Positions 19,346 through 52,903 of a stretch of DNA of 64,000 bases are shown here, in pieces. A program made the translations under genes and the position numbers. Every line of letters begins with the position of its first letter. Position 1 is the stretch's first letter. The notes beneath the pieces were generated by a model. That model saw only the letters and a list, made by a program, of their open reading frames with translations. It had not been told where the DNA came from and did no database searches. This DNA is from Pseudooceanicola spongiae (GTDB lineage: Bacteria; Pseudomonadota; Alphaproteobacteria; Rhodobacterales; Rhodobacteraceae): contig NZ_CP045201.1 of NCBI RefSeq assembly GCF_014899185.1, forward strand, positions 356,501 to 420,500, read 5' to 3'.

Positions 19346-19513
19346 ATGACCGACCTCTTCTCTTCCCACCGCTTGGGCCAGTTTGAGCTTTCCAATCGCT
19401 TCGTCATGGCCCGCAGGCGGACGGCACCCCCGGCGCAAGCGCGGCGCTTTACTATGGCCAGCGCGGCAGCATCGGCCTGATCATCAGCGAGGGCACGCAG
19501 CCCTCCGACGATG
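19346..19513 (+). pseudogene. Old yellow enzyme (alkene reductase) fragment
   Basis: The gene begins MTDLFSSHRLGQFELSNRFVM, the standard start of an NADH:flavin oxidoreductase of the OYE family, with a ribosome site. After VMA a short deletion shifts the frame. Family sequence then continues in another frame (DGTPGASAALYYGQR, GLIISEGTQPSDDG) and stops abruptly at about 19513, where the end of a methyltransferase on the opposite strand begins. About 300 residues are missing. It was presumably the fourth gene of the SDR cluster before the rearrangement. Confidence 0.82.
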
Positions 19514-21040
19514 GTGAGGGGTGCCGTAATACTTGGCGAAGAAGGTCGCGACGGGCGTTTGCTGGCTTCCGCTGCCGGTGATCGTGGAGATTGGCTCTTT
19601 CAGGTCACGGCCTGTGCTCGCGCCAATGCGCGGCCCTCCATTCTGCTGGGCAAGGAACGCAGCAGCGACGGCGTGCTTGATGCCTCCGGCGACAACGGTG
19701 CCAAGCGGCTTTGTGATGTCGAGAGATCGTGTTGCCTGTCCCGGCCTTTCTCCGTATCCGGTCTGAATGAGCGTCGGCATGATGACAGCGTTCTGATCCT
19801 TACGGCTGGCGCAGATTGTTGAGTGGGGCAGCGTTGCCGGGCGGCAGTTTCCACCCTGCTGGGTGTAGGTCAGCACCGGCGCGATCAGCGCGCTGTGCCC
19901 GCCGCCGGCCAGCACGGTTGGATGCGGCGACGTGACCGCGCTGTCGCGGCGGGCTGTGCCTTTGAGCGACATGAGGCACGGTGCCAGCAGCCCCAGCGGG
20001 GCTGCGCCGCCGGGGCGCTTGATCCAGCTGTTGGCGGTGATCGTCGGCACGGGCGCGCGCAGGTCCGATCCGGTGGCACCGCCGTTGAACCGCGTCAGGC
20101 TCGGGGCGGCGAGATCTTCAACCCGACCGCCGTGGGTGAGGTTGACCAGGAAGGGGCGGTCGGCGTCCAGCACATAGCGTTTCATCCCGCGCGCGATGCG
20201 GGCGAGTGTATTTGCGGCCAGAGGGCGCTTGGCGCGCAGGCCGTGCTTCGCCATGATCTCGGCGGAGGTCTCGAAGATCGAGGGGCAGGGCAGCGACCAG
20301 TCGATGCACTCCGCCGCTGCGCGCCATGGCTGCAGCTGACCGGACATCACGTCGGCGCTGTCTAGGGCGCCGTGGGTTGGCGCGGGCCAGACGATGGGCT
20401 TGCCGTCAAAGCGGATGATGACGAAGCGACGCTTGCGGATGGTCGGGGCACCATAGTCGCAGCCGCGCAACTCGCGGGTCTGCATCTTGCCGCCGAGACG
20501 ACGGATCTGCTTTTGCCAAACCCGGAAGGTCTCGCCGCGCCGGTCCGGGCAGGGCATGAGGCCGCGCGCTGTCTGCACCAGCGGGCCCCAGTCCTTCCAC
20601 TCATCGACGTTCTCCATGATGACCACGTCAACCCGGCCACCCTTTCGCTGCAGGCGGTCGATCCAGCCCGGAATGATCCAGGCAAGATCGCGGATATTGC
20701 GCTCGACCGGCTTGCCGCCTTTGGCCTTGGAAAAGTGCTTACAGTCTGGGCTGAACCACATCAGGCCGATGTGGCGGCCCTGCAGGTGGTCGAGCGGATC
20801 GACCCGGAACACGTTCTCGGAGAGATGCAGTGTGTCCGGGTGGTTCGCGGCATGCAGCGCCAGCGCGGCGGCGTTGTGGTTGATGGCGATATCCGGACTG
20901 CGTCCGAGGGCGAGATCGATCCCGGTGCTGGCCCCGCCGCCGCCCGCGAAGCTGTCGACGATCAGCGGGCGGGCGTCGGGGTGCCGCACCGAAACAGGCG
21001 AGGGGTCCGCCAGAATGCCGAAGAGATCAGAGCCATCCAC
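19484..21040 (-). CDS. Phage-type DNA (cytosine-5) methyltransferase, C-terminus truncated
   Basis: C5 methyltransferase motifs are present: SFAGGGGAS (I), WFSPDCKHFS (IV, with the catalytic Cys after Pro-Asp rather than Pro), MENVDEW (VI) and RKRRFVII (VIII). Repeated TIT and GTVVAGG segments make up the target region. Proteins of this type occur in alphaproteobacterial prophages and continue past FFAKYYGT. Here the homology stops at that point (about 19514), and the last dozen residues (PHHRRRAACPR) are read from the antisense of the old-yellow-enzyme fragment. The start is GTG 21040. Activity is uncertain because C-terminal residues are lost. No cognate restriction enzyme is nearby. Confidence 0.8.
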   Translation of the reverse strand: MDGSDLFGILADPSPVSVRHPDARPLIVDSFAGGGGASTGIDLALGRSPDIAINHNAAALALHAANHPDTLHLSENVFRVDPLDHLQGRHIGLMWFSPDCKHFSKAKGGKPVERNIRDLAWIIPGWIDRLQRKGGRVDVVIMENVDEWKDWGPLVQTARGLMPCPDRRGETFRVWQKQIRRLGGKMQTRELRGCDYGAPTIRKRRFVIIRFDGKPIVWPAPTHGALDSADVMSGQLQPWRAAAECIDWSLPCPSIFETSAEIMAKHGLRAKRPLAANTLARIARGMKRYVLDADRPFLVNLTHGGRVEDLAAPSLTRFNGGATGSDLRAPVPTITANSWIKRPGGAAPLGLLAPCLMSLKGTARRDSAVTSPHPTVLAGGGHSALIAPVLTYTQQGGNCRPATLPHSTICASRKDQNAVIMPTLIQTGYGERPGQATRSLDITKPLGTVVAGGIKHAVAAAFLAQQNGGPRIGASTGRDLKEPISTITGSGSQQTPVATFFAKYYGTPHHRRRAACPR

Positions 21041-34737: not shown

Positions 34738-34824
34738 GGGCTCACAACCGACTTTCGCTGCAGCTGCAAACGAAATCAACGTAAAATCCAAGGGTGAGCG
34801 GCGGCAATGCGGACAGAGCGGACC
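34738..34824. repeat. Dispersed intergenic repeat, short form (copy 3)
   Basis: It reads GGGCTCACAACCGACTTTCG, then TGCAAACGAAATCAACGT and GAGCGGCGGCAATGCGGAC. It is related to 28578-28661 and 29764-29850 with several substitutions. It lies just upstream of the TetR operator. Confidence 0.7.
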
Positions 34825-34842
34825 TCTGGTCCTGCCGGCTTG

Positions 34843-34870
34843 CAAATGTAAAACGTTCGTTTTACATTTG
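34843..34870. promoter_or_regulatory. TetR operator palindrome
   Basis: A perfect 28-base palindrome (13-base arms 34843-34855 and 34858-34870, spacer TT; each arm reads CAAATGTAAAACG inward) lies 27 bases before the TetR start. Its length and symmetry suit a TetR dimer pair, and its AT-rich core probably overlaps the promoter. It implies autorepression of the tetR-MFS operon. Confidence 0.75.
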
Positions 34871-34897
34871 TGTCCAAGGACGCCAAAGGAGGTTCCC

Positions 34898-35422
34898 ATG
34901 GATATGACCCGCAAACTCACCGCAGCCGCCGAGCGGCTCTTCGACCGTCACGGCTACATGGCCACCGGCATGGACCGGCTGACGGATGCTGCAGGGATGT
35001 CGAGCCGCACGCTCTACAAGCACGCCGGCAGCAAGGCCGCGCTCATGGCGCGCGTCCTGACCGAGAGGGACCGGCGCTTCATGGCCCGGCTTGAGGTGCG
35101 GACCGTCGACGCCTTGTTTGCTGCACTTGAGGACTGGGTGCGGGTCGAGGGGTGTCGGGGCTGCCTGTTCCTTCGCTCTCGCGCGGAAACGGGTGGCGAC
35201 ACGCCGGGGATCGCCGAAGCCGTCGCGGCGCACAAGGAGGCTTTCCATCGGCGGGTCGGCGAGGTCGTCGCAACGGATCTGGGACGCGAGGACCCGGCGC
35301 TCGCAGAGCAGGTGCTGGTCCTCTTCGAGGGCGCGACCCACGCGGCTGTCTATCGTGGAGCACAAACCGTCTCCGCAGCAAAGGCGGCGGCGGCCATCTT
35401 GCTGGAGAGGGCGCGCTCATGA
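34898..35422 (+). CDS. TetR-family transcriptional repressor
   Basis: The 174-residue regulator has the TetR helix-turn-helix near the N-terminus (AAERLFDRHGYMATGMDRLT, AAGMSSRTLYKHAGSKAALM) and a diverse all-helical ligand domain. ATG 34898 follows a full AAAGGAGG ribosome site. The stop overlaps the ATG of the MFS gene (ATGA), so the two are translationally coupled. The upstream palindrome is its likely operator. It should derepress the exporter when a small-molecule ligand binds. Confidence 0.93.
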   Translation: MDMTRKLTAAAERLFDRHGYMATGMDRLTDAAGMSSRTLYKHAGSKAALMARVLTERDRRFMARLEVRTVDALFAALEDWVRVEGCRGCLFLRSRAETGGDTPGIAEAVAAHKEAFHRRVGEVVATDLGREDPALAEQVLVLFEGATHAAVYRGAQTVSAAKAAAAILLERARS

Positions 35423-36552
35423 GCCCGGCCCTTCGCATCGGCGCGACAGGCTTCGCCCTCATCGCGGTCTGCTACGGTTTTGCCCGCTTCGCCTTCGGCC
35501 TGTTCCTGCCGCAGATTGACAACGAACTGGGCATTGGCACGTCCCTCAGTGGGGTGATCTCGGGTGGATCTTTCGCCGGCTACTGCATCGCTATTGTCGC
35601 CTCGGCCATCCTGACCGAACGGCTCGGCGCGCGCGCCGTCGCGGTCGGGGCGGCCCTCGTTGCGGCAATCGGCATGGCGGGCATCGCGCTCGCGCCGTCG
35701 CCCCTGATCCTGGCCATTGCCGTGGTGGTCGCCGGATCGAGCACGGGCCTTGCCTCGCCGCCTATGGCCGCCGCGGTTGCAGCGGCGGTCAGTAAAGGCC
35801 ACCAGGACCTGACGAACACGGTGATCAATGCCGGCGTGAGCGCGGGCGTTGCGCTGTCGGGGCCAATCGCGCTTGGCCGCGCGGGACAATGGAGATTGGC
35901 CTTCGGAGCTTTCGCGGCCGTCGCACTGGTGTTGGCCATCACGGCCGCGACCTCGCTTCCTGCCGTCTCGGACAGCGGTCGCGCAGCTGGCCTTCCCACG
36001 ATGACGGGGCCGGTCCTGCGGCTGATTTCGGCATCCTTCCTGATGGGAGCCGCGAGCACCGCGCTCTGGTCCTTCGGCGGCCAGATCGTTTCGAACCAGA
36101 TGGGCTGGGGGCCGGGCGGAACCGGCCTTCTCTGGACCTGCATCGGCACCGGGGGGCTGGCTGGAGCCTTGGCCGGAACGCTCGTCTGCCGGTTCGGTCT
36201 CGACCGCGTTCACGGGGCCTTTCTCGGCCTGTTGGGGGCCAGCATCCTTTTGGTCGGGCTCGGCCTTGGTCCCGTCCCCACGCTGGTCGGAGGGGCCATC
36301 TTCGGCGCGGCCTATGTGATGCTCACGGGGGTCTACCTCATCTGGGGCACTCACGCCTTTCCGGACCGGCCTGCAACCGGGCTCATGGTCGGCTTCCTGA
36401 CCATCGCCGTGGGCCAGACTGTCGGTGCCCCTCTCTTCGGATTTCTCTTGGCGGGGCCGGGCGTCGCGTCTGCCGTCATATGTTTCGCCGCCGTCGCGCT
36501 GATCGCCGGGACCTTCCGCTCAAGGTCCGCGGTGGATGGCGCAATTGAGTAG
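35419..36552 (+). CDS. MFS transporter (YbfB/YjiJ-like)
   Basis: The 377-residue protein has about twelve hydrophobic segments. The start ATGFALIAVCYGFARFAFGL, FLPQIDNELGIG, ISGGSFAGYCIAI and later LVCRFGLDRVHG match YbfB/YjiJ-type major facilitator proteins. It probably exports a small molecule out of the cytoplasm. The ATG overlaps the tetR stop by four bases, so it is regulated by that repressor. The substrate is unknown. Confidence 0.9.
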   Translation: MSPALRIGATGFALIAVCYGFARFAFGLFLPQIDNELGIGTSLSGVISGGSFAGYCIAIVASAILTERLGARAVAVGAALVAAIGMAGIALAPSPLILAIAVVVAGSSTGLASPPMAAAVAAAVSKGHQDLTNTVINAGVSAGVALSGPIALGRAGQWRLAFGAFAAVALVLAITAATSLPAVSDSGRAAGLPTMTGPVLRLISASFLMGAASTALWSFGGQIVSNQMGWGPGGTGLLWTCIGTGGLAGALAGTLVCRFGLDRVHGAFLGLLGASILLVGLGLGPVPTLVGGAIFGAAYVMLTGVYLIWGTHAFPDRPATGLMVGFLTIAVGQTVGAPLFGFLLAGPGVASAVICFAAVALIAGTFRSRSAVDGAIE

Positions 36553-36590: not shown

Positions 36591-36770
36591 GGGCTCGAAG
36601 CAGACCTGCGGCAGCGTGGCGTGCTAGACACGCAGGTGAGTGGTCTGCCCGGCAGAGACGGCCCAGACCTGTCGTTGGCCAGATGTCCGAGCGCTGCGTT
36701 GCAGCTTCCCCGAAGCAGACGTTCGACAGATCGTGTAGCATTTTTTCGCCAAAGGTCTGCTGAGCGGACA
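36591..36770. repeat. Dispersed intergenic repeat, long form (copy 5)
   Basis: It runs from GGGCTCGAAGCAGACCTGCG to TTGCAGCTTCCCCGAAGCAG and ends GATCGTGTAGCATTTTTTCG, then AGGTCTGCTGAGCGGACA. The last block also ends copies 2 and 4. It separates the MFS gene from the low-GC genes. Confidence 0.65.
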
Positions 36771-36867
36771 ATCCTGCCGTTGTTTGAAAGCGCTCCACAC
36801 CAAATTGTTCTTTATTAGTTCGCCGCCGAACCCTAGGGTTACCATTAAAGGCAAAAAGGACAGATAA

Positions 36868-37467
36868 ATGAAAATTAGGGTTAGTCAGTTCATCGACTTT
36901 GCGTACGGCGACAAGCGCCAAGACAAGGCCAAAGTAAAAAGCATAATTAGCGACCTCGATTTGCCGTATGATCCTATTAAGGATCGTTACAAGCAGTTCC
37001 GAGAAGCACTTATTTCTTTTGAAAATAAAAAAATTTCAACTGAGAAATTTCGCTCGCTGCATTCTAGCGTTTCCGCAAACAAGTCCACTGGATACCAAGT
37101 TCTGTGTCAAAACTATCTGGACTTGAAAGAGGATCATGCACTCATTTGGCAGGGGCATAGTCCGGTTGAAGCTGATATTTCTGGCTTAAGCATAACAACA
37201 GCTTGGTACTTGCGCACAGAGGCAAACAACCAGAGGAGGATTATTTTCCTACATTTCGGAAAAGAACAACTACCTCGGAAGAAGGAGCGAGGCCTGTTAA
37301 CTATTCTTCGCTTGGCTCGACCAGAGTCGGCGGGAGTTGGCATTCTCAATATTCAGCCAGGAACACTAATAACTGCGACGCGAATGGATCAACGCGAGGC
37401 CGAATACCTACAGGGACGCGCTAAAAAATTTCTAGCTTGCGCTAAAAGTCTCCAGGCCGACGTTTAA
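36868..37467 (+). CDS. Hypothetical protein, low-GC
   Basis: The 199-residue protein (MKIRVSQFIDFAYGDKRQDK) is rich in Lys, Ile and Asn and its GC is clearly below the surroundings, a sign of recent transfer. The N-terminal half looks helical. The C-terminal half (HALIWQGHSPVEADISGLSI, RIIFLHFGKEQLPRKKERG, LLTILRLARPES) looks like an alpha/beta domain. There are no membrane segments or catalytic motifs I recognise. It is convergent with the low-GC gene at 37724-38761. Function is unknown. Confidence 0.75.
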   Translation: MKIRVSQFIDFAYGDKRQDKAKVKSIISDLDLPYDPIKDRYKQFREALISFENKKISTEKFRSLHSSVSANKSTGYQVLCQNYLDLKEDHALIWQGHSPVEADISGLSITTAWYLRTEANNQRRIIFLHFGKEQLPRKKERGLLTILRLARPESAGVGILNIQPGTLITATRMDQREAEYLQGRAKKFLACAKSLQADV

Positions 37468-37723
37468 AGGCTTTGAGCGCTACTAATTGGCTTCAACACA
37501 GAGGGCTTAAACCGGACTTGCGACGATGCGGCGCGCAAATCTTGACCCTTCAGGCTTCGGCGTGACCAACCGGATGACCGATCCCGGCTCGAAGCGAAAA
37601 CAGAAAAATAAAAATTAAAAAAGAGTTTGCTCTCCAAATGCTTGAAAGTTCCGTCATAGCGCAACTTATGCCATTTTTAAAAAAGACAATATCCCCAAGC
37701 GATTTTAAAATTTTATATTAAAT

Positions 37724-38761
37724 TCACATCCAAAACACATAATCTTGAACATGATACTCAGCCATATGCGCAAGCCGTTTATCTTCTACATCAATTGCTC
37801 TCAGTCCCGTCTTGATACTTTCTGGGACCTCCCTACCGTTTGGATTTTGAATGAAGACGTTAGGCAGAGCAGTAGCGGATCCAAAATCAAAAAGTCCATG
37901 TCTGTCAATCAAATCATCTTCTGCCAGGGCCCTTTGAAAGTATGTCATATGCCTTATCAATATAATTCCATCTATACTGGGATATGTGACCGGATCACCT
38001 GAAGAATCGATGTTCCACGTGTCTAAAGTCAACAACCCTCCTCTAATTCCAAGTAAAGACCCAATGGGCTCGTAGATGTAGTCATCCCAAACTATCACAG
38101 ATATATTTGCTCCTGGGACTGTAGGGAAACCCGAGAATTTCTTTTCGCAACTAACCAAAAAATCTTTGACTGGGGTGTCCCGTGGGAGAGTGACGCTTTG
38201 ATCCGAAACTAGCTCATCGATTTGCTCTAGTGGAACCAAACCTCTATGAGGCAATTGAATTCCATTGCTCGCCCTTTTCGCTTGATGATCAAGCAATGAT
38301 GGGGATTTTACTTCAAATAGAAACTGGTGATCTGGTGTGCTGACCATTAATTCAGGTCGCTTCCCCGTGCGGCCAGCCGGCTCAAGAAAAAACGAAGTAT
38401 TTTCTGGCCAAGACAACCCAAGAACCCTCTCAATAACAAGGATCTCAGCAAGTACTTGCAAAATCTGCTGGTAGTGCATCCGATCACTTTGGCGATTTGA
38501 GAGAGAGGCAATTCGAGAAACAAATGACACCCCCTCATTAGGCATCTTCGCCTCAATCTTGGCGCATCTACTAGCCAGCGCCAAGCCAACAGAATGTGGT
38601 CGGTATTGAGAAAAATGATACTTCAGCCAGTGCCAATCATTGGCAGTAATTAAATCAACAGCAAATAAATACATACAACAAATGTCCCTGCGAACACGTT
38701 GCCCCATGACGGAAACAACAAATTTCCGACGGGGGTCCGAAGCATAATCCTTTAAGTCCAT
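37724..38761 (-). CDS. Hypothetical protein with PD-(D/E)XK nuclease-like motif, low-GC
   Basis: The 345-residue protein is AT-rich like its convergent neighbour. In the middle, GKRPELMVSTPDHQFLFEVKSP fits the PD-(D/E)XK pattern: an acidic residue after Pro, about ten residues, then E-V-K on a hydrophobic strand. That suggests a restriction-endonuclease-like fold. The N-terminal part is helical. The C-terminal part (SIDGIILIRHMTYFQRALAE, ALPNVFIQNPNGREVP) is unassigned. Such folds occur in defence and repair proteins, but no known system is recognised here. The nuclease call is an inference from one motif. Confidence 0.75.
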   Translation of the reverse strand: MDLKDYASDPRRKFVVSVMGQRVRRDICCMYLFAVDLITANDWHWLKYHFSQYRPHSVGLALASRCAKIEAKMPNEGVSFVSRIASLSNRQSDRMHYQQILQVLAEILVIERVLGLSWPENTSFFLEPAGRTGKRPELMVSTPDHQFLFEVKSPSLLDHQAKRASNGIQLPHRGLVPLEQIDELVSDQSVTLPRDTPVKDFLVSCEKKFSGFPTVPGANISVIVWDDYIYEPIGSLLGIRGGLLTLDTWNIDSSGDPVTYPSIDGIILIRHMTYFQRALAEDDLIDRHGLFDFGSATALPNVFIQNPNGREVPESIKTGLRAIDVEDKRLAHMAEYHVQDYVFWM

Positions 38762-39152
38762 TTTACTATCAAATTTTGTGCTTTCTGAGTTTTCTCCGGC
38801 CGATATTTATATTATCCCGGATTGAGCCTTCAACATGTCCAAATTTGTACTTTGTTTGCCAAGCGTTGCAAAGCCTGCTCTTGCGCACGGCCGACCTTGG
38901 TGCGCAGCGCAGCATCGGGGCTTCGGTCTGCTACGGTTTGAATGGCCACTTTTGCAATTCTGACACAGAACCTTCACGTTTGCAGCGAAGGTCCGGAATC
39001 CGCCCTTCATGTCAGATGCTGCACCTGCGAAACCGAAGCGCGCGACCGGCAAGTTTGGGCCGTCTCCGGCCCTCCGCTGCGCTTGGCACGAAGGTCGGCT
39101 CTTGGCCGCCCTTGCTTATAGGTGGCCCCGAAAGTTTGGCCTCCGCCTTTTC
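38762..39152. other. Intergenic with repeat-like segments
   Basis: It probably contains the promoter of the low-GC minus-strand gene at its left end. From about 38880 it holds pieces of the dispersed repeat family: GCAGCGAAGGTCCGGAATCC and GCCCTTCATGTCAGATGCTGC at about 38980-39023, and further CCGACCTT blocks. I see no gene. Confidence 0.5.
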
Positions 39153-40566
39153 CTATTCCTCGTAATAGAACTTCAAATCGCGCCGCCCTCTCAGTTGCGC
39201 AGGCCGGTAGGGTTTGACCTCGCCGCACTGGGCAACGGCTTTCGCTCGCACGCGCTCTTGGACCGAAGGGTGGAGAGGAAAGTCGTCGCCAACTTCTCGG
39301 ATACCTTTCTTCCAGCCTATGCGATACGGACCAAACGCAACCATCGCGTCTTCGCGGTGCTGCAGGCCGAATGGGTCAGGTGCACGATTGAGGAAATTCT
39401 CATTGATAAGGATCGACGGAACACATTCCTTTAGCTCGTCCACCATCCAGTCAAGGGCAATGTCGCTGAGGCGGGATTCGGCCTCGGGATAGCTTCCGCC
39501 GATGTCGCTGTGGCAGCCCGGAAACCAGACTTGCTTGAGCCACTTCGGCTCGCGGTCTTTGGTCTCAATCGCCGCCGCCTTGGATGCCCATCCAACTCTA
39601 GGAAAGTCGGCACGGTCTTCGTCGATTGCCATGGCGTGGCGCGCGTATTTGACGTCTGGATCAAGCCACTTGTCGTAGTTGCGCTTGTTCCAGGCGGCAA
39701 AATGCCCGGTCTTGATGATTTGAGCCCAATCGCTTGGCCGCCAGAGCCTGAGACTGCGATCGGGATCATCCGAGAAGTACTTGAAATTATCAAGCAACAG
39801 TTCACTGAGCTGCCAGATCAGAGCGATGAGGAGTACTCCAAGTGGGATGATCAAGAGCCATGACCATGCGAGCATCAAGCTGGCGGCAAAGGCAGCGCCG
39901 ACAGCGAAGGTGCCCCCCCAGACCAGCGTGCGCACGATGGCGGTCCGCAATGAAGCCACCGTGTCAAAAACCCCGATAAAAGTTGGCTGGACGTTGCCTT
40001 GATTGTCTACACCTTCCAGAGGAAAGCTAGAATACTTCTTGCGAAACCGACGGCCAAGCTCTTCGCGGTTCACAAAATACGGGTTCTCTGTCCGCGGTTT
40101 TCCCGCACCGTGGTTGTAGACAAACTTCACCGCGTCTGTAGCTATCTTGCGCAAACCGGGCCCATAACGCGGAACCGCCGAACTATCAGGCATCTGTGTT
40201 GGGATGCCGCAGAGGTTCATGACATTGGCAAGCGCTCTGACTGTATAGGCACCTCGCGAGAACCCGAACAGCAGCACACGGTCCCCTGGCTCATAATGCG
40301 CGATGATCTGTTCATAGCAATCGATGATGTTGTGATCGATGCCTGTGCCGACTGCGCTTTCCAGAATTGGCTTGATACGACCGAAGAGTCCGCCGCTTTC
40401 GCCGGTTCCCAGACCTGGGTCGTAGAATGCTACTTGGTCCTTTGGGGGAATCCGGCCCAGGCCGCATCGCCCGATACATCTTGTAGACGTTCGAAAGCCG
40501 CTGGTCAGGCCTGGCGCCGCCCATCTGGCCGGTTCCATCCGAGAAGATGCAGATATTCTTGACCAT
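39153..40566 (-). pseudogene. DUF2235 (Tle1-like) alpha/beta hydrolase, single frameshift near start
   Basis: ATG 40566 opens MVKNICIFSDGTGQMGG and RLSNVYKMYRAM, the classic start of DUF2235 proteins. At the CCCCC run near 40444-40448 the frame shifts by one, and the rest of the protein follows as DQVAFYDPGLGTG, with the nucleophile elbow GFSRGAYTVRA, two membrane-like helices and DIGGSYPEAESRLSDIALDWM, ending at 39153 (about 460 residues). DUF2235 includes type VI secreted phospholipases (Tle1), but no VgrG, PAAR or immunity gene is seen nearby. All conserved motifs persist, so the break may be recent, phase-variable or a sequencing error. Confidence 0.8.
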
Positions 40567-43118: not shown

Positions 43119-44200
43119 GACAGATCCTTCATTGTGCTGTTCCCGTCAGACATGACCGCAGGAGTGCTTTCCTTGAGGCCTCTGGCGAGGCTCATAAGGG
43201 GGGCGCAAACGCAATCAGTTTATAAGCTATGCGGGACGATGCGGGTTGAAAGGCGTTCGAAGGGTCGGCACGGCGATCCGATACGGGTATCGCTTTGCGT
43301 CGCACTCCTGAGCCTAGCGTCAACAACTGATGGCAGATCCGCATCATGAATGAAAACGATGGATATGCAGTGTGAAGATGCACGGCGTTCATTATGGGGT
43401 GATGGACGTGAACCTCTCCCCAGGACATTCACAAAAACCTGGCGACCTGGCTCTGGCATCAACTAGGAACGCCTTTTGGCATCAGTTCCACAGCACGCTG
43501 CACGATTTTACGAAACCATAGATGTGCCGGATCATGATCGTTGCGGTTGTGCCAAATTCCGCGGAAGGTTGAGTGGCTGACCGGATAGGGTGGCAAAACC
43601 ATCAGTAAATCGTCGGTTGCGACAAACAGGCGTGCCAATGAACAGGGCAGAATACTGAGCATCTCCGTCCTTTCCATCACTGAAGCGATAACCATCGAAT
43701 GGGCGATCGTGATGCGGTATCGTGGAACTGCGCCGATCGTCGCCAGTGCCTCCTGCAATGCATTCCGGTCGAACATCTCGGATTGACGCGCAAGCCCTCG
43801 TTCGAGAATGAAACCGTCCACCGCGCCCTCCTCCTTTCCGCCGACTGAGATCGTCAGCAGAGGATAGGTGACCATGTCCTGTAGGGTCAGTTTGGGTCCC
43901 GCGGCTGGGTGCGAAGAGTGCATGATGACCAGATCGCCCTCAGTCATGAGAGCAAATGATCTGAAATGCTCAGGGATTTTCTGGAATACACCCATGGCAA
44001 GGTCGATGCGACCGACATCGATCTGCTCTGCCAAGTTGAGGCGCTTTCCCGCACGCAGCAGGTTCCTGTCCTCATAGACGGCATTGAAGATCTTGATCAG
44101 GTTCAGATCGATAGGGCCAAGAGCCGGTGCAGCCATTAGTTGAATTTCGTGCAGTTTCAACATGAAGAGCCATCGTTTCCGCTGCAGCAGGTAGTGTGAC
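43104..44200 (-). repeat. Inverted duplication, arm A (LysR/GMC intergenic segment)
   Basis: This segment is the reverse complement of 50171-51581, with high identity, except that 315 bases are missing inside the LysR gene. It covers the start of the GMC gene, the intergenic region and the LysR gene. The two arms lie about 6 kb apart in opposite orientation. Confidence 0.9.
43459..44136 (-). pseudogene. LysR-family regulator with 315-base internal deletion
   Basis: The first 28 residues or so (ALGPIDLNLIKIFNAVYEDR, NLLRAGKRLNL) run directly into AEQIDVGRIDLAMGVFQKIP. Compared with the intact copy at 50244-51227, 105 codons are missing. These include the recognition helix (SASAVSHALTRLRHVVGDEL) and the start of the effector domain. 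The deletion lies between two near-identical 12-base stretches (CGGCTCAACCTG and CGGCTCGACCTG), so it is a short-repeat deletion that kept the frame. It cannot bind DNA normally. The GMC gene beside it may now be controlled by the intact paralogue. Confidence 0.88.
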
Positions 44201-44360
44201 AGGTTTTGGATCACGGACCTAAGCCCCATCCGCGCGATCATCCGATCACCGAAAGAGCGCCAATCCTAACGCCACGCAATATGCGGGCTGCGGGTGCAAT
44301 CCCCACGGCACTTCACCCGGCGGAGCGCGCGGGCACAATCAACCTCCAATGGAGACTGCT

Positions 44361-49344: not shown

Positions 49345-50094
49345 TCAGAGCCCGGCGGCAACTGCGGCGGCCTCGATCACGTCGGCCACATCTTGGGGGT
49401 GCGACAGAAACACCGAATGGCTTGCGTCGATCTCGGTTACGTCAGACCCGGCCCGGGCATACATCGAGCGCTGCAGGTCGGGATTGATCATCCGGTCCGA
49501 TGTGGTGAGGACGGCAAAGCTGGGCTTGTACTGCCAGGCCGGCGCACCGATCGGAGTGCCCCAGATCTGACCATTCATCGGGATCTGCGAGATTGCCATG
49601 AACTCCGCCGTCGCTGCGGGCACATCGGCCGCGAAATCAGCCGGGAACTGTGCGGGATCGACCAGAAGGAAACCGTCCGAGGTCGCCGTGATGCTGTGCG
49701 AGGCGGGCGGCGTGCCTTCGGACATGGCCCCCAGGACGTCGCCCTCGGCGGGTGCGAAGGCGGCGACGTAGACCAGGCTGGCCACATTGGCGTGATTTCC
49801 TGCCTCGGTGATGACCGCGCCGCCGTAGCTGTGACCGACCAGAACGGCCGGGCCTGACTGGCCATCCAGAATGCGGTTGGTCGCCGCCACGTCATCGGCG
49901 ACCGAGGTCATCGGCTGCTGGACGACGCTGACGGTATAGCCATCGGCCTGAAGGATTTCGGCGACCGGCTTCCAGCCCGAACCGTCGGCAAAGGCGCCGT
50001 GGACCAGGACGACATTGCGGACCGGTTCGGCAGATGCGGCTCCGGCAAGACTGGCGACAGAGACGGCGGCGAGAAGGGTTTTCGACAGGGTCAT
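49345..50094 (-). CDS. Exported alpha/beta hydrolase (paralogue of 26648-27412)
   Basis: A signal peptide (MTLSKTLLAAVSVASLAG to ASA) is followed by VVLVHGAFADGSGW, nucleophile elbow GHSYGG and a C-terminal EIDASHSVFLSHPQDVADV with the catalytic His. It shares the PMTSV.DDVAA segment and general layout with the hydrolase at 26648. ATG 50094 has AGGAGA upstream. It is divergent from an intact LysR gene, repeating the LysR/hydrolase arrangement at 25.6-27.4 kb. Confidence 0.9.
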   Translation of the reverse strand: MTLSKTLLAAVSVASLAGAASAEPVRNVVLVHGAFADGSGWKPVAEILQADGYTVSVVQQPMTSVADDVAATNRILDGQSGPAVLVGHSYGGAVITEAGNHANVASLVYVAAFAPAEGDVLGAMSEGTPPASHSITATSDGFLLVDPAQFPADFAADVPAATAEFMAISQIPMNGQIWGTPIGAPAWQYKPSFAVLTTSDRMINPDLQRSMYARAGSDVTEIDASHSVFLSHPQDVADVIEAAAVAAGL

Positions 50095-50170
50095 GCTATT
50101 CTCCTGCATCTTGCGGACGATGCCTGCAGACGCGTTTGCTAAAGGGGGGTAAGGTCGTGACACAAGCGAT

Positions 50171-51581
50171 GTCACAGTTCCAACGACAGCGGAAACGATG
50201 GCTCTTCATCTTCAAGCTGCACGAAATTCAACAAGGAGCTGTCATGGCTATTGGCCCTATCGATCTGAACCTGATCAAGATCTTCAATGCCGTCTATGAG
50301 GACAGGAACCTGCTGCGTGCGGGAAAGCGGCTCAACCTGAGCGCGTCGGCTGTCAGTCATGCGCTGACCCGGCTTCGCCATGTGGTCGGCGACGAGCTGT
50401 TCGTGCGAACTCCTAGCGGCATGATGCCGACCGCCCGCGCGGACGCAATGGCACAGGATCTGACGGATTCATTGAACAGGATTGTCGCGACCCTCGGTGT
50501 GGACCCATTTAGCCCAGCCACATCGACGCGTCAGTTCGTGCTTGCCGCCAACGATCATCTCGCCTCTGTTATCATGCCCCACTTGACCCGGCTGATGAGC
50601 GCCGAAGCGCCGAGGATACAGTTGGTTGTGCGCCCGGCGACGCGGCTCGACCTGGCAGAGCAGATCGACGTCGGTCGCATCGACCTTGCCATGGGTGTAT
50701 TCCAGAAAATCCCTGAGCATTTCAGATCATTTGCTCTCATGACTGAGGGCGATCTGGTCATCATGCACTCTTCGCACCCAGCCGCGGGACGCAAACTGAC
50801 CCTACAGGACATGGTCACCTATCCTCTGCTGACGATCTCAGTCGGCGGAAAGGAGGAGGGCGCGGTGGACGGTTTCATTCTCGAACGAGGGCTTGCGCGT
50901 CAATCCGAGATGTTCGACCGGAATGCATTGCAGGAGGCACTGGCGACGATCGGCGCAGTTCCACGATACCACATCACGATCGCCCATTCGATGGTTATCG
51001 CTTCAGTGATGGAAAGGACGGAGATGCTCAGTATTCTGCCCTGTTCATTGGCACGCCTGTTTGTCGCAACCGACGATTTACTGATGGTTTTGCCACCCTA
51101 TCCGGTCAGCCACTCAACCTTCCGCGGAATTTGGCACAACCGCAACGATCATGATCCGGCACATCTATGGTTTCGTAAAATCGTGCAGCGTGCTGTGGAG
51201 CTGATGCCAAAAGGCGTTCCTAGTTGATGCCAGAGCCAGGTCGCCAGGTTTTTGTGAATGTCCTGGGGGAGAGGTTCACTTCCATCACCCCATAATGAAC
51301 GCCGTGCATCTTCACACTGCATATCCATCGTTTTCATTCATGATGCGGATCTGCCATCAGTTTTTGACGCTAGGCTCAGGAGTGCGACGCAAAGCGATAC
51401 CGTATCGGATCGCCGTGCCGACCCTTCGAACGCCTTTCAACCCGCATTGTCCCGCATACCTTATAAACTGATTGCGCTTGCGCCCCCTTATGAGCCTCGC
51501 CAGAGGCCTCAAGGAAAGCACACCTGCGGTCATGTCTGACGGGATCAGCACAATGAAGGATCTGTCATGACCAATGAAACG
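50171..51581 (+). repeat. Inverted duplication, arm B
   Basis: Matches the reverse complement of 43104-44200, with 315 additional bases inside the LysR gene. It ends at the fifth codon of a lost GMC oxidoreductase gene (ATGACCAATGAAACG at 51567-51581), after which the sequence is unrelated. Confidence 0.9.
50244..51227 (+). CDS. LysR-family transcriptional regulator (intact copy)
   Basis: The 327-residue protein has helix-turn-helix LIKIFNAVYEDRNLLRAGKR, NLSASAVSHALTRLRHVVGD, and a NodD/SyrM-like effector domain (RQFVLAANDHLASVIMPHL, GRIDLAMGVFQKIPEHF, YPVSHSTFRGIWHNRNDHDP). ATG 50244 follows AAGGAG. It is divergent from the hydrolase at 49345. On its other side the duplicated promoter of the GMC gene remains but the GMC gene is gone. 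Being intact, it may act on the GMC promoter at 43.1 kb in trans. Confidence 0.92.
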   Translation: MAIGPIDLNLIKIFNAVYEDRNLLRAGKRLNLSASAVSHALTRLRHVVGDELFVRTPSGMMPTARADAMAQDLTDSLNRIVATLGVDPFSPATSTRQFVLAANDHLASVIMPHLTRLMSAEAPRIQLVVRPATRLDLAEQIDVGRIDLAMGVFQKIPEHFRSFALMTEGDLVIMHSSHPAAGRKLTLQDMVTYPLLTISVGGKEEGAVDGFILERGLARQSEMFDRNALQEALATIGAVPRYHITIAHSMVIASVMERTEMLSILPCSLARLFVATDDLLMVLPPYPVSHSTFRGIWHNRNDHDPAHLWFRKIVQRAVELMPKGVPS

Positions 51582-51808: not shown

Positions 51809-52903
51809 TTAATCGGACGCACTTTCGCCTTTGGCGAGCGCGAGAAGCCAAGGCCATTCGTCATACTTGTCACCCCTTTCGTGTAGATGAGTGTAGCGCT
51901 GGAGTGATTGCCAGGATCTGTGCCCTGAGACTGCAGCAGCTTGAGGAATATGTAGTCCCATTTCGAAAAGCCGGGATACTCCTTCGTGCCGGAGGTCGTG
52001 AAAACGCAAATCGTCGATGGCGAGTACTTTGCAAGCTCTCGTGAATGCCGCACTGATTGCATCGGTTGAAAATGGAAAAATGAACGCGCTGTTGCGAGGC
52101 ATGCTGAGGGCTATGGAGCAAGCGGCGTCTGGCAGGTCACATAGGACATCGTTGCCAGCCTTGTCGCCCGGATGTTTCATGTCCTTGACCATGATCCTTT
52201 TGGCGTCGGCATCCAAGTCAGCCCATTTGATACGTGTGATCTCCTCCTGACGCCGCGTCGAAAAAAGAGCAAAGGCAGTGATCATGTGCATGGGGGCACT
52301 GGAGGGCCGCGCAGCGTGTTTTTTCGCAAAGTGTTCCATCAGGGAGTTCAGTTCAACCAAGGTGGGGCGGCGTGCGCGTGCGCGGGATTTTCCCGTGATT
52401 CCGAGTCGGTTACAGACCGCGAATGCATCCTTCATCTGTTGGTGCTCGAGCGGCATGTTCCAAGCAGGTTTGGCGATGGCGAAGACTGAGGATAGATGGG
52501 AAAGGTAGTTGCTGACCGTAGCAGCGGAGCGCTTTATGCCGAGTTCTCGTGCGAAAGCTACAATGTCCGAGCTTCGAATTTCTGCACAAAGCATGTCAGA
52601 AATGTCGAACTCCAAGATCGTCGAAAGGACTTGGGCCTTTGTTCTACCAATCTGCTTTTCGCTTTGATCGGTGTAGGTTCTGATAGCATCCGCCAGAGTT
52701 TTCTGCCGTGTCTTCAAAGCAAACAGGTTTTCGCCTGCTTTGTTCAGCTCATCGGTCCTCTTCTTGGCCCAGACTGTGGCAGCACTTTGGCGGTCGAAGG
52801 TTCGAGCTTCCCTGTAAGTGGGTCTACCCTTTTGTGTAAAGATGATCTGTACCATATAGGCGACTGAACCGTCTTTCCGGACCCGCTTTCGTATCGTAGC
52901 CAT
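51809..52903 (-). CDS. Tyrosine recombinase / integrase (dusA-associated)
   Basis: The 364-residue site-specific recombinase has an N-terminal arm-binding region (MATIRKRVRKDGSVAYMVQI), a SAM-like core-binding domain and a catalytic domain. Catalytic residues are Arg in FSTRRQEEI, HxxR in HDLRHEGVSRLFEMG, and HRSWQSLQRYTH with the nucleophile Tyr. It looks complete. It is divergent from dusA, whose 5' end is a known integration target for this type of element. It probably inserted, and could excise, the island to its left. Confidence 0.92.
   Translation of the reverse strand: MATIRKRVRKDGSVAYMVQIIFTQKGRPTYREARTFDRQSAATVWAKKRTDELNKAGENLFALKTRQKTLADAIRTYTDQSEKQIGRTKAQVLSTILEFDISDMLCAEIRSSDIVAFARELGIKRSAATVSNYLSHLSSVFAIAKPAWNMPLEHQQMKDAFAVCNRLGITGKSRARARRPTLVELNSLMEHFAKKHAARPSSAPMHMITAFALFSTRRQEEITRIKWADLDADAKRIMVKDMKHPGDKAGNDVLCDLPDAACSIALSMPRNSAFIFPFSTDAISAAFTRACKVLAIDDLRFHDLRHEGVSRLFEMGLHIPQAAAVSGHRSWQSLQRYTHLHERGDKYDEWPWLLALAKGESASD

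Follow-up and report, generated by a model that had tools for sequence, protein, structure and literature searches.

Two genes of low GC content lie next to each other, in convergent orientation, in a 64,000-nucleotide stretch of Pseudooceanicola spongiae DNA (the window; positions 356501-420500 of a 4.37-Mb contig). Their arrangement raises the question of whether genes A and B constitute a two-gene defence or conflict system, as proposed in a first-pass annotation, and, if they do not, what the larger gene, B, might do.

A low-GC gene pair in mosaic surroundings

The description of the locus as two AT-rich convergent ORFs was confirmed. Both frames are intact and separated by a gap of 256 bp, with GC contents of 0.448 for A and 0.443 for B as compared to 0.603 for the window, and GC3 values of 0.445 and 0.408, respectively, against 0.64-0.81 in the four adjoining genes measured. 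The locus comprises the following features:

34809-36518, plus strand: genes for a TetR-like regulator and an MFS transporter, forming a module that also occurs on other plasmids
36692-36781: weak dispersed repeat on the left flank, three further genome copies at 71-72% identity
36796-37431, plus strand: most of gene A and 72 bp upstream, 78% DNA identity to plasmid pP13_h
36868-37467, plus strand: gene A, 199-aa protein
37724-38761, minus strand: gene B, 345-aa protein with a predicted PD-(D/E)XK nuclease fold
38982-39072: weak dispersed repeat on the right flank, one further 91-bp copy at 78%
39153-40538, minus strand: DUF2235/Tle1-like gene (PF09994, E 6.4e-55)

Dispersed repeats had been reported to surround the pair. 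Weak copies do occur on both flanks, but they are few and match loosely (71-78%). The right flank shows an additional 35-bp genome match at 86%, and an inverted match of 25 nt (80%) connects the two flanks. The neighbour on the right is indeed a DUF2235 gene; it is frame-disrupted in the assembly (39153-40566, minus strand), its N-terminal part lying outside the frame of the 461-aa main ORF. The segment between 39152 and 40814, containing this gene, matches plasmids of Sulfitobacter, Ruegeria and Roseovarius, and the TetR/MFS block matches plasmids of Thioclava and Palleronia (in both cases among the best 15 of 41 records). Each plasmid listed carries one block, be it TetR/MFS, the DUF2235 region or A, suggesting that these modules probably arrived separately or were shuffled. 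Gene B was absent from the Roseobacter plasmids carrying the DUF2235 module. Overall, the surroundings of A and B look like a plasmid-like mosaic.

Two further observations concern the right part of the window. One gene, which we take to be of the LysR type, is present twice and in opposite directions (43459-44241, minus strand, and 50034-51227, plus strand). At the DNA level, the copies are 98% identical across 758 bp and 85% identical across another 196 bp, and the first is devoid of an internal stretch of approximately 100 residues. In addition, a presumptive tyrosine integrase-like ORF (51809-52903, minus strand) adjoins a gene assumed to be tRNA-dihydrouridine synthase-like, marking a possible island edge.

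Genes A and B occur separately

The product of gene A is 86% identical to that of a gene of the conjugative MOBQ/MPF_T plasmid pP13_h from Phaeobacter piscinae. On this plasmid, an HTH gene and then a MobQ relaxase gene follow the A-like gene; since the DNA match ends at position 37431, these two genes do not follow A in the window. A Sagittula plasmid harbors an A-like gene split around an IS5-family transposase gene, and relatives of A are also found in a contig from the same genus (G297:C264), next to genes that we take to be VirB6-like and relaxase-like. In a sample of 385 genomes of the class, A was present in one, the window's own. Among 200 genomes of the Lysinibacillus family, 27 contained more distant relatives, in one case as a weak partial match. 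A 235-aa protein adjoins the A-like gene in eight of the 20 loci fetched from this family (L060-L079), an arrangement that might simply reflect synteny between related species. Profile searches of A against Pfam, NCBIfam, PADLOC and PHROGs returned nothing usable, the viral scans yielded no relatives of A, and the single-sequence structural model was unusable (pLDDT 36.5).

Adjacency, convergent orientation and equally low GC are the features that speak for a joint A and B system. The distribution of the two genes, however, makes such a system very improbable. Within a sample of 295 genomes of the bacterial family, A and B came together only in the window's own genome, and in a sample of 20 genomes of the genus the A-like DNA match and the B-like match fell in different genomes (G297 and G295, respectively). 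Among 24 other B-bearing genomes searched, 23 had no A; the exception, a Lysinibacillus genome, encodes a distant relative of A (E 1.5e-9) whose contig position, 195901, places it outside the contig of B, which is 134186 bases long. Conversely, B was missing from the loci fetched around A genes, whether from the Lysinibacillus family (20 loci of about 3.6 kb each), from the plasmid or from the same genus. Finally, A resides on Phaeobacter and Sagittula plasmids, while the sole plasmid with a relative of B, out of all plasmids searched, is one of Peribacillus. In the samples searched, no locus other than the window's own had A adjoining B, and the proposal of a two-gene system is largely refuted. 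Most likely, the two genes are neighbours by coincidence, A probably being an unrelated gene that arrived separately from a plasmid. Recognizing this prevents the two from being catalogued, wrongly, as a defence gene pair.

Gene B carries the signature of PD-(D/E)XK nucleases

Searches for relatives of B identified 25 loci in genome contigs, six in viral contigs and one on a plasmid; a second viral scan with a wider alignment returned the same six viral loci. An alignment of 31 rows was built from P0002 and 30 of the 32 loci from the genome, viral and plasmid scans, leaving out L034 (whose score equals that of L032) and the partial L027; L002, which duplicates the Tateyamaria locus L026, was also left out. 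The conserved elements in B are listed below:

38444-38446, minus strand: E106, acidic residue in the first core helix (94-114 in the model), conserved in 31/31 homologs
38306-38356, minus strand: catalytic motif PE-x12-E-V-K, residues 136-152 (31-row alignment)
38135-38185, minus strand: family motif PRD(N/T)PVKDFL-x5-KF, residues 193-209 (31-row alignment)
38081-38092, minus strand: family motif VWDD, residues 224-227, at the end of the fourth core strand (alignment and model)

The sequence PELMV...FLFEVKSP, at residues 136-154, had been read as the catalytic strand of restriction endonuclease-like folds, and the alignment bears this out. P136, E150 and K152, like E106, are found in all 31 homologs, and residue 137 is E in 30 of them and D in one, the type of swap that the motif permits. 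The family consensus is thus P-(D/E)-x12-E-(V/I)-K. Seventeen columns are invariant, including H44, E106, P136, E150, K152, Q169, R173, D200, K208, W225, D226, D227 and E231. In the PRD(N/T)PVKDFL-x5-KF motif, D200, K208 and F209 are present in all rows, P193 in 28, and R194 and D195 in 29 each; in the VWDD motif, W225, D226 and D227 are present in all 31.

As the annotation had suggested, the structure of B was predicted. The AlphaFold2 model, made from 30 sequences, is confident (pLDDT 90.9, pTM 0.92) and contains the helix-strand-strand-strand-helix-strand topology of the PD-(D/E)XK core. Its elements are, in order, a helix (94-114), three strands (123-126, 138-141 and 146-152), two helices (156-165 and 198-210) and a strand (217-225) that leads into the VWDD motif. 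E106 is part of the first helix of the core; of its strands, the second has residue 137 at its margin and the third contains E150 and K152.

Fold comparisons with VIA-align placed the fdxN excision factor/XisH in the top rows (Z 6.7 and 6.6), with further rows for McrBC (6.2), CdiA-CT (6.0), NucC (5.8), Cdn1 (5.5) and Can2 (5.1), a Hachiman chain and several type II restriction enzymes, of which PfoI and BbvCI align over most of B (Z 4.9 and 4.8). We take XisH, McrBC, CdiA-CT, NucC, Cdn1, Can2 and the type II enzymes to have the PD-(D/E)XK fold; nucleases of this kind make up the larger part of the structural neighbours. Z values up to 6.7 are in the range that the tool calls common, and the 50 rows include 11 for unrelated acetyl-CoA carboxylases, which reach Z values of 6.2. 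Foldseek comparison of the model to the PDB gave no match at E <=0.001, nor did a fold search against BFVD. With modest Z values, no Foldseek match and carboxylases among the rows, the fold assignment rests mostly on topology and motif. Taken together, the invariant catalytic residues, the confident model and the fold neighbours at modest Z support the nuclease reading.

Sequence databases gave B no established family. Queried alone against Pfam, NCBIfam, PADLOC and PHROGs, it produced nothing usable (best, phrog_7326, E 0.26); PADLOC models failed to match it at E values up to 10, and phmmer and hmmsearch against PDB chain sequences gave nothing with E below 0.8. When the 31 homologs were scanned against profile databases, the SEC-C motif alone reached E <0.001 (0.00099), in three homologs that the alignment identifies as the three Bacilli members. 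Other Pfam matches were weak (E 0.016 or worse), as were those to NCBIfam (E 0.0018 or worse) and PADLOC (PDC-M15A, E 0.0013, in one member; E2 models, four matches, best E 0.018). The family core is therefore without a significant match in Pfam, NCBIfam or PADLOC. In the Bacilli homologs (L006, L029 and L031), a C-terminal extension ends in the SEC-C-like zinc motif. A literature search limited to SEC-C or SIR2-HerA in connection with nucleases found no paper. Values of dN/dS between close copies of B ranged from 0.05 to 0.19 in five of eight pairs, two of which have a common member, the other three pairs being saturated; in the pairs measured, the sequences thus point to purifying selection. 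From sequence and model, B is predicted to represent a new family within the known PD-(D/E)XK nucleases.

Gene B travels as AT-rich cargo

The B family spans nine phyla. It is patchily distributed: B was detected in two of 295 genomes of the bacterial family, and one homolog lies on a contig of Pseudooceanicola sp. HF7. With the window's own copy left out, the GC content of B is lower than that of the flanks in 24 of 29 loci (in 26 of 31 when two near-copies are included), the mean difference being -6.2 GC points (Wilcoxon p 9e-6). In comparison, a control set of 95 similarly sized ORFs taken from these loci, chosen mechanically so that some will not be genes, deviated by a mean of +0.8 points (B versus control, Mann-Whitney p 1e-7). 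This bias identifies B as mobile cargo. The B tree follows the phyla, with 8 changes for 9 groups, the minimum possible; hence, spread seems to have occurred mainly within phyla.

The contexts of B vary from locus to locus, and many of them look, on our reading, like ordinary chromosomal genes. At L007, the homolog sits alone between two conserved genes, presumably cmk and rpsA. At L033, it lies between genes matching phage head and tail families on a prophage-like contig; the homologs at L032 and L037 are its close relatives. A gene for a phage DNA-transposition protein is found near the homolog at L030. An all-against-all comparison of neighbours, from which near-copies L032, L034 and L037 were omitted, revealed no dedicated partner. 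Tyrosine integrases recur in four loci (L010, L013, L027 and L036) and ABC ATPases in four others (L008, L009, L021 and L022), the only other family recurring in at least three loci being antisense shadows of B itself. Read by eye, the recurring neighbours included no methyltransferase-like family. An unannotated protein of 265 or 283 aa (38% identity) adjoins the B homologs of a gammaproteobacterium (L017:7127-7921) and of a viral contig (L036:8081-8929), in opposite gene order. It is a possible partner of B at these two loci, and was not found in the window or in the other B loci compared.

Defence genes in the vicinity of gene B

Recognized defence genes were found near B in at least four of 27 loci. 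Upstream of the L030 homolog, and on the same strand, lie genes for a type III restriction enzyme-like protein (E 6e-99), SIR2 (E 1e-169) and HerA (E 2e-263), the last ending 45 bp before the homolog. LmuB (E 2e-161) is encoded 1.3 kb from the homolog of L025, an effector endonuclease (E 9e-25) adjoins that of L020, and AbiTii lies 1.6 kb from that of L010, a locus from the window's genus. Outside these 27 loci, plasmid locus L006 encodes a ThsA-like SIR2 protein (E 1e-25). SspA/DndA and mad2 were also among the matches listed for B loci, with no locus assigned; L009 matches to PADLOC were weak (E 6e-10 or worse) and left out of the count. As a control, we analyzed 23 arbitrary places, set by fixed coordinates, across 16 of the 24 genomes with B; at least two held recognized defence genes: AbiU in L085, and PtuA with PtuB, PtuA in L094. 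AriA and RtcR were also among the control matches listed, with no locus assigned. The scans covered 138 of 156 selected neighbour ORFs from the 27 B loci, nine of them scanned singly, and 137 of 162 ORFs from 23 of 27 control regions. Since the matches were taken from the best 25 of 80 families for B loci and the best 25 of 111 for the control, each count is a minimum.

With at least 4/27 loci against at least 2/23 control places, enrichment of defence genes near B is not established, the test being too small, and the defence context is suggestive. The mobile, AT-rich and patchy character of B is what a defence gene would show, and a defence role is plausible.

What gene B may do

We lean towards the view that B is a solitary restriction-like nuclease, self-gated or modification-dependent, probably directed against phages or plasmids, with A as a chance neighbour. 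The protein would consist of an N-terminal helical part (approximately residues 1-93) with the invariant His, the catalytic core with E106, E137, E150 and K152, and a family-specific C-terminal part; its gene would spread as single-gene cargo of chromosomes, prophage-like contigs and plasmids. Since neither a methyltransferase nor an antitoxin was seen as a dedicated partner, B probably cannot constantly cut unmodified host DNA. We infer that B acts as a nuclease, that its activity is gated and that defence is the benefit: most likely, B would either stay inactive until an infection cue, in the manner of abortive-infection nucleases, or cut modified or foreign DNA only, as type IV restriction enzymes do. 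A more elaborate proposal, which we offer tentatively, is that B represents a new single-gene family of defence nucleases, occurring in no fewer than nine phyla of bacteria and serving the prophages that carry it in superinfection exclusion. In this scheme, the helical domain at the N-terminus, with the invariant His at its centre, would respond to infection or to modified DNA by setting the PD-(D/E)XK core free to act; a SEC-C zinc motif would have been acquired in the Bacilli branch, and one member would have become associated with SIR2-HerA.

Other roles would fit parts of the data. A selfish free-standing endonuclease, homing-like or acting as a transposition helper, would spread by cutting empty sites; the lone homolog between two conserved genes in L007, the location amid phage structural genes in L033, the phage transposition protein in L030 and the integrases of four loci are what one might expect of it. 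Yet the contexts of B differ between loci and, to our knowledge, homing enzymes of the PD-(D/E)XK type are rare, so we hold this explanation to be unlikely. Still less likely is that B is what remains of a restriction-modification system, or that it is a nuclease of the toxin type, with its partner elsewhere in the genome. An ORF assumed to belong to the cytosine methyltransferase family does lie about 16.7 kb from B (19484-21040), and the alignment with PfoI and BbvCI goes in the same direction, but no methyltransferase-like family recurs beside B in the neighbour families read by eye, and a remnant is at variance with the purifying selection in the pairs measured. Less likely again is a housekeeping role as a DNA-repair or structure-specific nuclease. 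It is suggested by the Hjc resolvases and the repair endonuclease among the weak fold matches, and is difficult to reconcile with the presence of B in so few genomes of the family, with its AT-rich cargo signature and with the copies on viral contigs. Returning to the solitary restriction-like nuclease, a widespread nuclease-type family with no significant match in Pfam, NCBIfam or PADLOC constitutes a testable one-gene defence candidate.

Relationship to known systems

Gene A finds its closest counterpart on plasmid pP13_h, with which it shares 86% identity as well as the conserved 72 bp upstream, but from which it differs by the absence of the HTH and MobQ genes after it. For B, one homolog is associated with a SIR2-HerA operon, its start lying 45 bp past the end of HerA on the same strand; this arrangement was seen in one of the 27 loci scanned. 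Type IV restriction systems of the McrBC/Mrr kind offer a broader parallel. Like them, B appears to be solitary, with no methyltransferase partner seen, and McrBC chains rank among its better, though weak, fold neighbours; unlike them, B has no dedicated ATPase partner among its recurring neighbours. The widest resemblance is to the PD-(D/E)XK superfamily as a whole, represented by McrC, XisH, NucC, Cdn1/Can2 and type II restriction enzymes, whose core topology and catalytic signature B is predicted to share. It stands apart from these proteins in having no significant sequence match in Pfam, NCBIfam, PADLOC or PDB chains, and in displaying motifs of its own around WHW, PRDNPVKDFL..KF and VWDD..EP.
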